Assembly (NCBI RefSeq): GCF_009193135.1
Contig: NZ_VUKC01000006.1
Coordinates: forward strand, 1 to 64,000
Source: Georgenia satyanarayanai
GTDB lineage: Bacteria > Actinomycetota > Actinomycetes > Actinomycetales > Actinomycetaceae
Direction: 5' to 3'
Length of the DNA stretch: 64,000 nucleotides
Below are positions 3,555 through 32,147 of the stretch, piece after piece (positions within the stretch are counted from its first letter, which is position 1; each line of letters begins with the position of its first letter). The notes under the pieces are model-generated. The model did not search any database. It saw only the letters and a program-made list of their open reading frames with translations, and was not told the origin of the DNA. The position numbers and the translations under genes are program-made.

Positions 3555-4787
<1,233 letters not shown>

Positions 4788-26804: not shown

Positions 26805-27986
26805 TCAGACCTTCCCCCTGAGCAGCCGCCGGTAGTAGACGACCGGCTCGACGTAGCGGTCGAAGAACCACAGCGGTCGCCGCGGGACGGTGAGGTCGAT
26901 CGCGCTGACGCTCGGCGTCGGCGTGCCGTGCCGGTCGAACTCCGCGAGCGAGAGGCGCCGGCGGTCGACGGTGACCGGGATGACGGTGTAGCCGTCGTAG
27001 CGGCTCAGCGGCCGACCCGTGCGGGCGGCCCGGATGTTGTCGGCGAGGACGCCGACCTGGCGGCGCAGCGCGCCACCTGACGGACGGGTGCCGGTGTCGG
27101 CGACGTCGCCCAGGCTCCACAGCCGGGGGACGCTGCGGTGCGCGAGCGTCTCGGGGTCGACGTCGACGAGCCCCGCGGGGTGCTCCCCCGCGAAGGGACG
27201 CACCCACTCCGGGGCGCGGTAGCGCGGCACGACGGACGCCCACCGGACGTCGGCGAGCTCCCGCGTGCCGTTGTCGCTCGACAGCGTCACGGCACGGCCC
27301 CGGGCATCGACGGCCGAGACCGTCGCGCGGTGGTGGACGGTGACGCCGAACCGCTCGAGGGCCGGCTCCAGGTGCCGGTCGACGAAGGGCAGGTCGAGGA
27401 CGTCCTCGTAGGGCGTGACGAGGTGGACGTCGATGCGGTCGAGCACACCGCGGGCCCGCCAGTGGTCGCAGGCGAGGAAGAGCGGCTTGAGGGCGGTCCC
27501 GCCGGCCGGTGCCGGCTCCGGCGGGACGGTGAAGACGACGCGTCCGCTCCCGGTCTCACGGATGGCGTCCCACGTCGTCTCCGCCGTGCGGCGGAGGTAG
27601 GAGGTCCGTGCCCAGCCGAGGTCGATCGCCTCCCCCAGTCCCGGCGTCGCCGCGATGTCGGGCTCCAGGCCGGGGGCGAGCACGAGGTCGGTGTACCCGA
27701 TGCGGGTGCCCGACGCGAGCGTCACCTCGCGGGCCTCGGGGTCCACGGCGACCGCGGGGCTCGCCTCCCAGGTGCACCCCTCGGGGATGACGTCCCGCAT
27801 GGGACGGGTGAGCCGGTCGAGGGACACCTGGCCACCCGCGACGAAGTTGAGCAGCGGGCGGTAGAGGTGGTCCTGGTCCGGGGTGATCACGCAGACGTCG
27901 GGGCACCCGAGCCGGCGCAGGCGCGCCGCCAGCGAGATGCCGGCGTTCCCGCCGCCGACGACGACGACGTCGTGCCGTCTGGTCAT
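26805..27986 (-). CDS. FAD-dependent NAD(P)/quinone oxidoreductase (sulfide:quinone reductase-like)
   Basis: A 393-residue flavoprotein of the SQR/type II NADH dehydrogenase superfamily. It has the FAD-binding VVVVGGGNAGISLAARLRRLG motif at the N terminus, the YTDLVLAPGLEPD ATG-like motif, and the second FAD motif SVPRLWSLGDVADTGT, followed by LRRQVGVLADNI. The redox cysteines that define true sulfide:quinone oxidoreductases are not evident, so the substrate is open. It lies 70 bases downstream of the manganese catalase on the same strand, suggesting an oxidative or sulfur-stress unit. Confidence 0.85.
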   Translation of the reverse strand: MTRRHDVVVVGGGNAGISLAARLRRLGCPDVCVITPDQDHLYRPLLNFVAGGQVSLDRLTRPMRDVIPEGCTWEASPAVAVDPEAREVTLASGTRIGYTDLVLAPGLEPDIAATPGLGEAIDLGWARTSYLRRTAETTWDAIRETGSGRVVFTVPPEPAPAGGTALKPLFLACDHWRARGVLDRIDVHLVTPYEDVLDLPFVDRHLEPALERFGVTVHHRATVSAVDARGRAVTLSSDNGTRELADVRWASVVPRYRAPEWVRPFAGEHPAGLVDVDPETLAHRSVPRLWSLGDVADTGTRPSGGALRRQVGVLADNIRAARTGRPLSRYDGYTVIPVTVDRRRLSLAEFDRHGTPTPSVSAIDLTVPRRPLWFFDRYVEPVVYYRRLLRGKV

Positions 27987-28055
27987 GGGTGCTCCTGTCC
28001 TCGGGTGGTGACGGGGGCCGCTCGGCGCGGACCGGCCCCCGTCCACCGGTGGGTC

Positions 28056-28937
28056 CTACTCGCGGTGCAGCTTGTCCTGCACCGTGCCGGCGATCTTCTC
28101 CACGCGGTTTGGCACGTCGGTGGTGCCGTAGAAGCGCGCGTCCGGCCGGGTGGGCGGCGGCATGGGTGCCGACGTCGTCGGGCCGTCGTGGTAGGTGTGC
28201 TCGCCCTTGCCGTCGATGGACGGCCCCGAGGCCCAGCTGCCCTCCTTGGCGTGCTCGCCGTCGGAGAAGTTGAGGTACTGGTAGGAGACCTCGGTGTGCT
28301 CCTTCTTCTGCGGGAAGTTGCTCGGCGTGGGCAGCTCCTCCAACCCGTCGGCCTTGAGCTCCTCGACCGCCCGCAGCCACTGGTTCTGGTGCATGGTGTC
28401 GCGGGCGAGGAGGAAGGCGAGCATGTCCCGCACTCCGGAGTCGTCGGTCATGTGGTAGAGCCGGGCCACCTGGACCCGGCCCTGCATCTCGGCGTTGGCG
28501 TTGGCCGTGAAGTCGGCGAGCAGGTTGCCGCTCGCGGTGATGTACGAGCCCTGCCAGGGGTTGCCGTTGGAGTCGACCGGGCGGGCACCGGCCCCGGCGA
28601 CGATGGCGTGCTGGACGTCCGTCCCACCGATGACCGCGGCGACCGTGGGGTCCGCCTGGACGGCGTCGGTCGTGATCCCGAGCGGCGACTTCTCGAGGAG
28701 CTGGGCGATCATGACGGCGAGCATCTCGACGTGGCCGAACTCCTCGGCCCCGATGCCGAACACGAGATCGCGGTACTTTCCGGGGATGTGCATGTTCCAG
28801 CCCTGGAACGCGTACTGCATGGCGACGCTGATCTCGCCGTACTGGCCGCCGAGCACCTCCTGGAGCTTGCGGGCGTAGACGGCGTCGGGCTTGTCCGGTG
28901 TGGCGCTGAACTGCAGCTCTTGCTTGTGGAAGAACAT
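28056..28937 (-). CDS. Manganese catalase
   Basis: Non-heme manganese catalases use a di-manganese centre in a four-helix bundle to split hydrogen peroxide. The 293-residue product starts MFFHKQELQFSATPDKPDAV, then has the metal-ligand helices GQYGEISVAMQYAFQGWN (Glu), GAEEFGHVEMLAVMI (Glu and His), and ANANAEMQGRVQVARLYHMT plus ARDTMHQNQWLRAVEELK (Glu and His). The C-terminal tail wraps the hexamer in known structures. GAGGAGGCAG gives a strong RBS for ATG 28937. Confidence 0.95.
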   Translation of the reverse strand: MFFHKQELQFSATPDKPDAVYARKLQEVLGGQYGEISVAMQYAFQGWNMHIPGKYRDLVFGIGAEEFGHVEMLAVMIAQLLEKSPLGITTDAVQADPTVAAVIGGTDVQHAIVAGAGARPVDSNGNPWQGSYITASGNLLADFTANANAEMQGRVQVARLYHMTDDSGVRDMLAFLLARDTMHQNQWLRAVEELKADGLEELPTPSNFPQKKEHTEVSYQYLNFSDGEHAKEGSWASGPSIDGKGEHTYHDGPTTSAPMPPPTRPDARFYGTTDVPNRVEKIAGTVQDKLHRE

Positions 28938-29015
28938 CCTGCCTCCTCGTGAGTCCACCCGGTCGGCGGTGTGGGCCGGGTTGTGGCCCTGCTCACTATC
29001 ACGCGGGCGTCCGGG

Positions 29016-29834: not shown

Positions 29835-31073
29835 ATGGACCTCATGCACCGTCTTCGCGGCACGACCGCACGCGCCGCGTCCAGGCTCGGCCGAGAGCCC
29901 GACGTCAAGACGCGGTGGGCCCGGCGCGCCCGCCTCCTCCTCTACGTCGGCGTGACGCTCCTGCTGGGCTGGGAGCTGTACGTCAGCGAGGTCGACAACC
30001 TGCCGACGGCGCTGACGCTCGTCCAGGTGGCGGCGGTCCTCATTCTCTACGGCCTGGCGCGCTGGCCGGTGATCGCCGCCGCGCTGTCCCTGCCGCTCGT
30101 CGTCGCCGAGGTCGTTCTCGGTTTCCACCCCTTCTCCCTGACGATCGTCGCCTCGATGCTCATCGCCGGTGTGCTCATCGCCTCACGGCCGCGGCAGATC
30201 GGCTACCTCTACGTCCTGTCCGTCGTCGTCATCCTCACGGTTGTGCAACCGACAGACATCCCGCTCGCCGATCTCGTGACCTGGCTGACGATCTTCCTGC
30301 TCCCCTGTGTCATCGGCGAGGCCGTCCGCTCGATGCTCAGATCCGTCGACCGTTTCCAGCAGAACTCGATGGTGCAGCTGGCGCGCCAGCGCCGTGATCT
30401 CGCGCGGGAGCTGCACGACACCTCGATCCACGACATCACCTCGATCATCATGGCGCTCGAGCGCGCGAAGCTGACCGGCATCCAGGACCCCCGGGTGCTC
30501 GAGGAGATCGACCACGCGATCGCCATCGGCCGCCAGTCGGTCGTGAGCATGCGCGGTGTGCTCAAGATCCTGCGCACCGAGGACAGCGGCGTGCGGCGGC
30601 CCGGCACGGAAAACGTGCCGGCGGCGATCGCCGCCGCCGCCCCCACCCTCCAGCGCGCGCTCGACGATGCCCGGGCCTCCCTCGAGCGCGCGGGCCACAG
30701 GCTCCAGGTGCACGTCGAGGACCACGTCGACCTCCCGCTGCCATTCTCCGTGCGCACCGCGCTCGTGCGCGTCATCCAGGAGTGCACGGCCAACATGGCG
30801 AAGTACGCCCGCCCCGGTGCGCCGTGCACGGTGATGATCGAGCGCACCGACGTCGAGACCCGCGCCCTGTTCCTCAACGACGCCCGCGAGGGCGCCGAGG
30901 CGGACAGTGCGCTCAGCTCGGGCGTGGGCCTCATCGGCGTGCGGGAACGTGTCGAGGCGGTCGGAGGCAGCCTGGTCGTACGCCATCATGATGGGAGATG
31001 GATCATCCAGGCATCCATCCCGACGATCAGTTCCGCGACCGAAGGACAGGTAGAGCGTGCCGCACAGCACTGA
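29835..31073 (+). CDS. Sensor histidine kinase, NarL/DesK (HisKA_3) type with polytopic sensor
   Basis: The 412-residue product has five or six membrane helices (about 35-165) with almost no extracytoplasmic loop, then the HisKA_3 box DLARELHDTSIHDITSII with phospho-acceptor H194, an N-box-like ECTANMAKYA and the G box GVGLIGVRERVEAVGG. A sensor made only of membrane helices is typical of kinases that sense membrane state, antibiotics or small peptides. The last 17 bases overlap the regulator gene. ATG 29835 starts MDLMHRLRG; an exported-peptide gene follows the pair. Confidence 0.92.
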   Translation: MDLMHRLRGTTARAASRLGREPDVKTRWARRARLLLYVGVTLLLGWELYVSEVDNLPTALTLVQVAAVLILYGLARWPVIAAALSLPLVVAEVVLGFHPFSLTIVASMLIAGVLIASRPRQIGYLYVLSVVVILTVVQPTDIPLADLVTWLTIFLLPCVIGEAVRSMLRSVDRFQQNSMVQLARQRRDLARELHDTSIHDITSIIMALERAKLTGIQDPRVLEEIDHAIAIGRQSVVSMRGVLKILRTEDSGVRRPGTENVPAAIAAAAPTLQRALDDARASLERAGHRLQVHVEDHVDLPLPFSVRTALVRVIQECTANMAKYARPGAPCTVMIERTDVETRALFLNDAREGAEADSALSSGVGLIGVRERVEAVGGSLVVRHHDGRWIIQASIPTISSATEGQVERAAQH

Positions 31074-31743
31074 GGGTGCCGAGGGACCCACCGACAAGGC
31101 CACGATCCGCGTGCTGCTCGTGGACGACGACCCCATGGTCCTCGCGACGCTCCAGAGCTACGTGGCGACCGCGGACGACATCGACGTCGTCGGGACCGCC
31201 GACGACGGGTCGCAGGTACGCGACCTCGTGCGCGCGCACGACCCGGACCTCGTCATCATGGACATCCAGATGCCGGTCATGACGGGGATCGAGGCGACCG
31301 TCCAGCTCCGCAAGGAGTTCCCCCAGCTGCGCATCGTCCTCCTCACGACCTTCGACGAGGACGAGTTTCTCCTCGAGGCGCTCGACGCCGGGGCAGCCGG
31401 GTTCCTGCTCAAGAACACGAGCCCCCAGGACCTCGTCCAGTCGATCCGCCGGGCGCACAGCGGCAACCGGGTGGTCTCCCCCGGGCCGACCGACCGCCTC
31501 ATCGACAACTACCTGCTGCGGACGCCGAGCTCCGCCGAGGCCGCGGACATCGGCCTCTCCTCGCGCGAGCACGAGGTCCTCGAGCTGCTCTGCCGCGGCC
31601 GGTCCAACGGCCAGATCGCCGAGGAGCTCTTCGTCGCCGAGACCACCGTGAAGACCCATGTCTCGTCAATCATGCGAAAGATGGGGGTCGGCTCGCGGCT
31701 CGAGATCGTCGTGTACGCCTACGAGCGGCGCCTTGTCCGCTGA
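31057..31743 (+). CDS. LuxR/NarL-family response regulator
   Basis: The 228-residue regulator has a receiver domain (about 17-130) with D69 in VIMDIQMPVMTG as phospho-acceptor and DDD acidic pocket residues at 23-25, then a LuxR-type helix-turn-helix (LSSREHEVLELLCRGRSNGQ and EELFVAETTVKTHVSSIMRK, about 163-205). It starts at GTG 31057 inside the end of the kinase gene, so the two are coupled and surely cognate. A half-palindromic ATCCT/AGGAT element lies at 31777-31800, upstream of the exported peptide, as a candidate target. Confidence 0.94.
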   Translation: MPHSTEGAEGPTDKATIRVLLVDDDPMVLATLQSYVATADDIDVVGTADDGSQVRDLVRAHDPDLVIMDIQMPVMTGIEATVQLRKEFPQLRIVLLTTFDEDEFLLEALDAGAAGFLLKNTSPQDLVQSIRRAHSGNRVVSPGPTDRLIDNYLLRTPSSAEAADIGLSSREHEVLELLCRGRSNGQIAEELFVAETTVKTHVSSIMRKMGVGSRLEIVVYAYERRLVR

Positions 31744-31776
31744 TCGGCACCTGACCACAAACCCTCCTCATGGCGG

Positions 31777-31800
31777 ATCCTCTTCCTACTTCCGAAGGAT
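31777..31800 (+). promoter_or_regulatory. Candidate regulator site upstream of the exported-peptide gene
   Basis: ATCCT (31777-31781) and AGGAT (31796-31800) form an inverted repeat around CTTCCTACTTCCGA, 69-92 bases upstream of the peptide start. NarL-family regulators often bind such short inverted arms. I do not see a clear -35/-10 pair nearby, so promoter position is unknown. Weak evidence. Confidence 0.3.
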
Positions 31801-31868
31801 GACTGCCGCGACGTTGGGCGGGGACGATGTGGGAAACCTCCACCCTTTCTCCAGAGAATGAGGATCTG

Positions 31869-32087
31869 ATGAAGCGCACCATCGTCCGCACCGCGGCCGT
31901 CGCCCTCGCGGTCGTCGGCCTGTCCGTGGCCCCGGCCGCGGCGTCCGTGCCCGGGAGCCACGAGCTTCCTGGCGGCACGACCCCCGTCGTCACGCAGCCC
32001 GTGGTGTCGGCGCCCGGCGGCAGTGAGATCACCCCGCAGGTTTCCTTCTGCACCGCGGTGCCGTGGTGGATCTGGTGCCGCGTCTGA
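31869..32087 (+). CDS. Small exported peptide with Trp/Cys-rich C terminus
   Basis: A 72-residue product unlike any family I recognise. Residues 1-25 are a classic signal peptide (MKRTIVR, a hydrophobic core, then APAAA before the likely cleavage site). Residues 26-57 form a Pro/Gly/Thr/Val-rich linker. The end is FCTAVPWWIWCRV: two cysteines, C61 and C70, frame a loop with three tryptophans. GAATGAGG gives a moderate RBS. It directly follows the kinase/regulator pair and ends at a strong terminator, so it is probably a real, regulated gene. A pheromone or membrane-active peptide is the leading guess. Confidence 0.75.
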   Translation: MKRTIVRTAAVALAVVGLSVAPAAASVPGSHELPGGTTPVVTQPVVSAPGGSEITPQVSFCTAVPWWIWCRV

Positions 32088-32099
32088 GCTGACAGGGAG

Positions 32100-32135
32100 A
32101 CGACCGCGGAGCCGTGAGGACGGCTCCGCGGTCGT
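32100..32135. terminator. Strong bidirectional terminator after the peptide gene
   Basis: A perfect 15-base stem (ACGACCGCGGAGCCG, 32100-32114, with its complement at 32121-32135) and a six-base TGAGGA loop, followed by TT. It lies 12 bases after the peptide stop and 12 bases beyond the stop of the convergent minus-strand gene, so it ends both transcripts. Confidence 0.92.
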
Positions 32136-32147
32136 TGCCGTCCGAGC

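Follow-up and report, generated by a model that had tools for sequence, protein, structure and literature searches.

What is a small, apparently exported peptide for when its gene lies directly behind those of a sensor kinase and a response regulator? The question is raised by a 64 kb stretch (here called the window) of the 3.44 Mb Georgenia satyanarayanai genome, where the kinase and regulator genes overlap by 17 bases (31057-31073) and a short reading frame follows after a gap of 125 bases (31744-31868). The features of the locus are listed in Table 1. In Pfam searches the kinase matches HisKA_3 (E 1.6e-9, above the cut-off), with HATPase_c below the cut-off, and H194 is invariant among 17 aligned relatives. 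Its first ~185 residues have no Pfam match and, by hydropathy, its N-terminal part consists only of hydrophobic segments, five to six in number, which bears out the sensor made solely of membrane helices proposed in a first-pass annotation. The LuxR-type regulator overlapping the kinase gene, also named there, is confirmed by its Response_reg and GerE domains.

Table 1. Features of the kinase-regulator-peptide locus (window coordinates) and of related loci
Feature	Position	Strand	Basis
Sensor histidine kinase, HisKA_3 type, 412 aa, H194 in ELHDT	29835..31073	+	Pfam; aligned relatives
Kinase codons 53-165, membrane sensor segment; two allele types track two peptide tips	29991..30329	+	Informative sites 50:2:2
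NarL/LuxR-type response regulator, 228 aa	31057..31743	+	Response_reg + GerE
Dyad TCCTACTTCCGAAGGA, putative regulator binding site, 85 bases 5' of peptide ATG	31784..31799	+	Pattern match, genus loci, enrichment
Exported 72-residue precursor peptide (predicted), ATG 31869, stop 32087	31869..32087	+	ORF, conservation, purifying selection
Signal peptide, codons 1-25, cleavage APAAA/SVPG placed by eye	31869..31943	+	Sequence; hydropathy criterion
Peptide tip, codons 58-72, C61-x8-C70; proposed mature signal	32040..32084	+	Invariant residues; informative sites 5:0:0
Strong hairpin 3' of peptide gene, without T run	32099..32136	+	Fold
Peptidase_S8 genes beside divergent regulator	L149:5389-6702, L142:3342-4037		Pfam

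The N-terminus of the peptide resembles a signal peptide that closes, by eye, with an AxA site, and its tail is SFCTAVPWWIWCRV. Under a fixed criterion (an ATG or GTG frame of 45-100 aa with a hydrophobic N-terminal segment and a Cys pair no more than 28 residues from the C-terminus), no frame but this one qualifies on either strand of the window. This, the coordinates and the purifying selection described below uphold the earlier call of a 72-residue signal-peptide ORF. No Pfam family matches the peptide, and the only NCBIfam match is to rodlin (E 0.084, below the cut-off), inside the signal peptide. The gene had also been said to end at a 15-base perfect terminator. A hairpin is indeed present (fold of 32085-32145: -42.4 kcal/mol, z -5.2), its core being seen in 4 of 5 aligned loci, but the stem has 17 pairs with a 4-base loop, no run of T follows, and it is absent from the terminator-scan calls. 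Immediately upstream of the locus, on the opposite strand (26805-28958), Pfam recognises a Mn catalase and a pyridine nucleotide-disulphide oxidoreductase. Elsewhere in this genome (contig 12; L044, about 4425-4555), a unit resembling GCCGACAGCCGA is repeated in a brief tandem array immediately 3' of a gene.

Within the genus (Georgenia/Oceanitalea) the peptide is found in five of six genomes at 66-100% identity, the sixth (G139) being 57% complete, and kinase, regulator and peptide are co-located in all four relatives, so that the conservation anticipated in the first-pass annotation is present. Among named records, the kinases of two Georgenia satyanarayanai strains and of Oceanitalea stevensii are the closest. 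All four relatives keep the divergent Mn catalase, and three of them also the pyruvate kinase beyond it, the fourth locus, L042, being a contig of 5.9 kb. Ten pairwise comparisons of the whole peptide give dN/dS values of 0.11-0.39, indicating purifying selection. The tip residues S59, F60, C61, V64, W66, W67, W69, C70 and R71 are invariant in all five peptides, and the linker carries indels. The kinase of L042 (G137:C6) is split over two frames at about residues 262-270, so that either the gene is broken or the assembly is at fault. A second cassette is present in G140 and G138 (L187 in G140, L238, and L239 with G138:C175:159134-159328), with an exported peptide of 61-65 aa, ending in FLGDLACQVLGDFFEKC, just 5' of another HisKA_3 kinase; no cassette of the L238/L239 type was found in the window's genome.

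The pairing of kinase and peptide recurs outside the genus. A kinase-only search of 213 family genomes (E 1e-30 or better) gave 13 more kinases, 29-34% identical and from 12 genomes, ten of which adjoin a different exported peptide, 60-94 aa long, whose C-terminal part holds two Cys (examples of the ends are FLCTWFPFLRPLCGPLNK, SWLCRAKVWFCRSGY, SPCFNYGGLLIGVCW and PGCHNIWFWKCLS). The remaining three are accompanied by a single-Cys peptide (L080), a contig edge (L084) or no peptide (L085). A 17-row kinase profile (cut-off E 1e-40) finds relatives in 43 genomes out of 396 drawn from the order and in 55 out of 213 drawn from the family; the two draws overlap. The wider survey covered 129 kinase stretches out of 132 loci, tandem copies and kinase fragments being counted separately. 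A Cys-pair peptide lies on the kinase strand in 36 stretches and on the opposite strand in 7; by kinase score the former are 26/69 (at least 200 bits), 6/38 (150-200) and 4/22 (below 150), and the latter 4, 3 and 0. Among the closer stretches (at least 200 bits), 43 of the 69 have no peptide meeting the criterion. The count of 36 omits the peptides of L222, L127 (single-Cys), L123 and L146, and includes three (L167, L201, L210) that resemble out-of-frame translation and were excluded from the motif and correlation tests. In loci above 7 kb, mainly of weaker kinase relatives, the density of Cys-pair ORFs near the kinase is 0.74 per 10 kb, against 0.35 both at greater distance and on the opposite strand; when an ATG and a ribosome site are required, the three values are 0.35, 0.05 and 0.14, respectively.

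Altogether, the tally of Cys-pair cassettes comes to 35 genomes, from 10 genera belonging to 2 families, with tip spacings from C-x5-C to C-x13-C and no shared composition. Of the Cys-x8-Cys with Trp proposed as a search target near homologous kinases, the Trp residues are a trait of the genus; what recurs generally is the pair of Cys towards the C-terminus. The exact Cys/Trp pattern occurred, among 394 class genomes, in the organism's own genome only, the other genus members lying outside that draw. A peptide profile (A1) run on 396 order genomes gave, besides the four genus genomes, 21 more at E 0.01; all of these are at E 2e-4 or weaker, most fall inside long unrelated frames, and they were discounted. 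A profile of peptide-first kinases (A4) had no match in 158 class genomes at E 1e-60, which is uninformative because this cut-off is overly strict.

The gene order of these cassettes varies. The order kinase-regulator-peptide (layout a) is found in the window's genus, in the genera labelled g6, g9 and g28, in some of genus g3, in one genome of family f5 and in L222. In layout b the peptide follows the kinase, and the regulator lies upstream on the opposite strand. Here a Peptidase_S8 gene adjoins, recognised by Pfam in L149 and L142 and by its serine motif in L157, L159 and L201; the secreted subtilase beside the regulator would be a candidate for the protease that matures the peptide. The peptide lies 5' of the kinase in layout c, with the regulator farther upstream, on the opposite strand in L107, L172, L209 and L221 and on the same strand in L187. 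Since the kinases of this layout bear a more ordinary HDIVAH box, it may represent a separate lineage. Layout d combines tandem kinases with a regulator and a peptide, and an ABC-2 permease is nearby in L146 and L162. Kinases of the same type stand side by side as tandem copies in L146, L147, L148, L150, L162, L164, L161 and L166; possibly they form sensor pairs for one peptide, or are duplicates drifting to new specificity. In L185, a 94-residue exported ORF about 1.9 kb past the kinase has, by eye, the look of a lactococcin-972-type bacteriocin.

Sensor and tip are inherited together within the genus. The main test used four loci: the window, L040 (G138), L041 (G140, O. stevensii) and L042 (G137, G. 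satyanarayanai CGMCC 1.10826). There are two tip types, FCTAVPWWIWCR in the window and L040, and FCGAVPWWLWCR in L041 and L042, and sensor residues 53-165 are 88-89% identical within these types and 64-68% between them. The residues preceding the sensor segment instead group L040 with L041 (96%), and the kinase domains of the window, L040 and L041 are 97-99% identical. Informative DNA sites, counted as those favouring the type grouping against each of the two other branching orders, are 50:2:2 in the sensor and 5:0:0 in the tip, 1.7 kb away. The flanks give 12:8:23 (catalase side), 5:9:41 (upstream gene) and 4:10:22 (downstream), the rest of the kinase 1:1:6 (codons 1-52) and 16:8:5 (codons 166-412), the regulator 7:4:10, the intergenic DNA 0:2:4 and peptide codons 1-57 3:4:2. 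Fisher tests for the type grouping put the sensor at 4e-24 and the tip at 2e-4; sites within a tract are not independent, and the tip contributes 5 sites in 4 codons, with 3 amino-acid changes. Matched alleles 1.7 kb apart, with most of the surrounding and intervening DNA in another order, are the pattern expected from selection for a match between ligand and receptor.

Pairs of loci outside this set give a mixed picture. In L157/L159 (g3), a replicate of the pattern, DNA identity falls in two places only, to 0.71 at the sensor and to 0.63, with 6 gaps besides, at the tip; elsewhere it is 0.86-0.97. In L149/L141 both tip (0.96) and sensor (0.95) are shared. L119/L120 have a common tip at the protein level and sensors at 0.92, a small contrast in DNA. 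The last 20 residues are unchanged in L238/L239, the second cassette of G140 and G138, where the linker has diverged and the sensor windows are at 0.90-0.97, with 0.83 beside the H box. In L148/L147 the tip is at 0.63, the lowest sensor windows of the tandem kinases at 0.70-0.81 and the kinase parts at 0.90-0.96, but the downstream DNA is equally divergent (0.44). One pair, L124/L126, breaks the rule, with a tip at 0.74 despite a sensor at 0.97. Across 31 cassettes, partial kinases and the broken G137 kinase being excluded, the partial Mantel correlation of peptide with sensor beyond the kinase is 0.29 (p 0.0002); in non-redundant cassettes it is -0.03 (p 0.65, n=22) or -0.08 (p 0.78, n=17). 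Either remote tips are too unlike to carry a signal, or the sensor-tip rule is only local. The peptide-signalling interpretation offered in the first-pass annotation is supported by the conservation, by the coupling of Cys-pair peptide and kinase, and by the co-inherited alleles, and the tip is likely the ligand of the neighbouring kinase in a signalling circuit.

A dyad, TCCTnCTTnCGnAGGA, is located 85-93 bases 5' of the peptide ATG in all five genus loci, and in the window's genome no second site fits the degenerate pattern exactly. Loosely similar stretches occur 5' of peptides in other genera: TCCTACTTTCGGGGGA (L125), TCCTACTTTTGGGGGA (L122) and TCCGACTAAGGTAGGA (L162, L148). For the 28 upstream stretches from outside the genus (the two Georgenia stretches being left out of 30), the best dyad matches total 157 mismatches, where 200 dinucleotide shuffles give 197.4 +- 4.2; for 20 representatives the total is 110, and the shuffles give 140.9 +- 3.7. 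Four or fewer mismatches are seen in 5 of the 28, where 0.15 would be expected; for single stretches p is below 0.05 in 9 and above 0.25 in 11. From its position and recurrence, the dyad is probably the site of the regulator, and from such a site autoinduction would follow. Autoinduction and action between cells are likely, with less certainty than the role of the tip as ligand. A dyad regulon elsewhere in the genome was considered and rejected, as 12 sites with at most one mismatch compare with 27 for a reversed control pattern; a near match (L229) has no clear target, and the genome scan gave no further target genes.

What the DNA shows directly is that the genes exist and are conserved, that a kinase with a Cys-pair peptide recurs, that sensor and tip alleles are inherited jointly and that the dyad is common to the loci. 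The best reading of these facts, as the most economical mechanism, would be an autoinduced peptide pheromone of the quorum-sensing type. We infer export, cleavage, disulfide formation, binding, the direction of regulation and action between cells as follows. The 72-residue precursor would leave the cell by the general secretion route, with removal of its signal peptide, and a protease would free a C-terminal piece holding the C61-x8-C70 loop. This loop peptide would be recognised by the membrane-embedded sensor of the adjacent kinase, which would phosphorylate the regulator. The regulator would then bind the dyad (31784-31799), raise expression of the peptide (autoinduction) and switch other target genes.

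Tip-sensor matching might also reflect autoregulation of the kind found in lantibiotic loci, the peptide being antimicrobial (bacteriocin-like) and sensed by its own kinase-regulator pair for control of production, with killing as the output. A tip rich in Trp and Cys would suit such a role, as would the ABC-2 exporter genes by the tandem-kinase loci L146 and L162 and the subtilases by others, since both kinds of gene occur in bacteriocin loci. However, none of the neighbouring genes looked at in the window, where annotation is not exhaustive, resembles an exporter or immunity gene, and tips ranging from C-x5-C to C-x13-C without common composition would be odd for a single killing mechanism. 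The analysis gave no positive evidence for this reading; a primarily antimicrobial peptide is unlikely.

Matched sensor and tip are compatible with any direct contact, and hence with a peptide that is an accessory of the cell's own kinase, for example a secretion or extracellular redox probe read by the sensor, with no signalling between cells. The Mn catalase and pyridine nucleotide-disulphide oxidoreductase just upstream in the window would fit a redox probe, but they are missing from the other-genus layouts scanned (nine proteins). Moreover, the matched allele types have been exchanged across species, a known pattern of pherotypes that is unexpected for a housekeeping probe, and an accessory of this kind appears quite improbable. 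The dyad 5' of the peptide, taken alone, would suit a peptide that is a mere target gene of the regulator, unconnected to the stimulus of the kinase. Yet sensor and tip follow one branching order and the intervening DNA another, and kinases with such peptides, their tips dissimilar, turn up in ten genera, making a simple target gene very improbable.

The pheromone reading invites comparison with known systems, in which, as here, a small exported precursor is generally encoded beside a kinase and a regulator. Their joint variation of signal and sensor is seen in the genus and in L157/L159, not in L124/L126, and the broad correlation disappears in the non-redundant sets. ComX-ComP-ComA of Bacillus has a multi-helix sensor, a LuxR-type regulator and a signal and sensor that diversify jointly, and the present locus resembles it in all of these, in having a peptide signal, and in the HisKA_3 class of its kinase; by Pfam, the window pair matches the ComQXPA classes (HisKA_3, LuxR-type). 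ComX has no ordinary signal peptide and is cut and isoprenylated by ComQ, whereas the precursor here begins with what resembles a signal peptide and carries a Cys pair, and among the genes adjoining the unit none was recognised as coding for a modifying enzyme. An excerpt of one paper places ComP in HPK7 (PMC8895600).

The staphylococcal agr system (AgrBDCA) is similar in its small looped peptide, the membrane helices of its kinase and the allele types of signal and sensor. It uses the processing protease AgrB, a thiolactone, a kinase of another class and a LytTR regulator; here the loop is probably a disulfide and the regulator is LuxR-type (Response_reg + GerE). No AgrB (PF04647) was found in the organism's own genome, and in 14 control genomes there was one match, never above the cut-off, so the control says little about search power. 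Membership in agr fails because of the regulator class and AgrB. The roles of AgrB, AgrD and AgrC are covered in passages of PMC13220807. Lantibiotic and bacteriocin autoinduction loci are alike in their exported precursor, subtilase and two-component pair, a subtilase adjoining some of the related loci; they differ in that export here is predicted to use an ordinary signal peptide and that the pair is of HisKA_3 and LuxR classes. Such loci hold precursor, subtilase and two-component pair together. The only solved structures matching the kinase by sequence are of DesK type, over the ATPase part (E 7e-5, query residues 310-395), and the DesK sensor parts have no match to the kinase here. The DesK sensor consists of membrane helices, and we know of no exported peptide partner for it.

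A literature search by title and start of abstract, with coverage that leaves most subscription papers and preprints outside, returned no such system, and the available passages of PMC8895600, PMC4748050, PMC12849477 and PMC13220807 do not mention one. According to an excerpt of a 2016 review, quorum sensing had been reported for 25 of 342 actinobacterial genera, nine of them with experimental evidence (PMC4748050). On balance the cassettes probably belong to a large undescribed class of actinobacterial pheromones, which would be exported by ordinary signal peptides, end in a disulfide loop made with no dedicated cyclase, and be sensed within the membrane by HisKA_3 kinases; exchange of tip and sensor as matched pairs, with the rest of the kinase, the regulator and the signal peptide left as they are, would create pherotypes that cross species. 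Candidate signals, receptors and operators are now available from 35 genomes of 10 genera, and a simple rule, a small exported ORF with a C-terminal Cys pair adjoining a HisKA_3 kinase, can be used to search for more. As two natural receptor-ligand types exist within one genus, the specificity of this putative signalling is directly testable.
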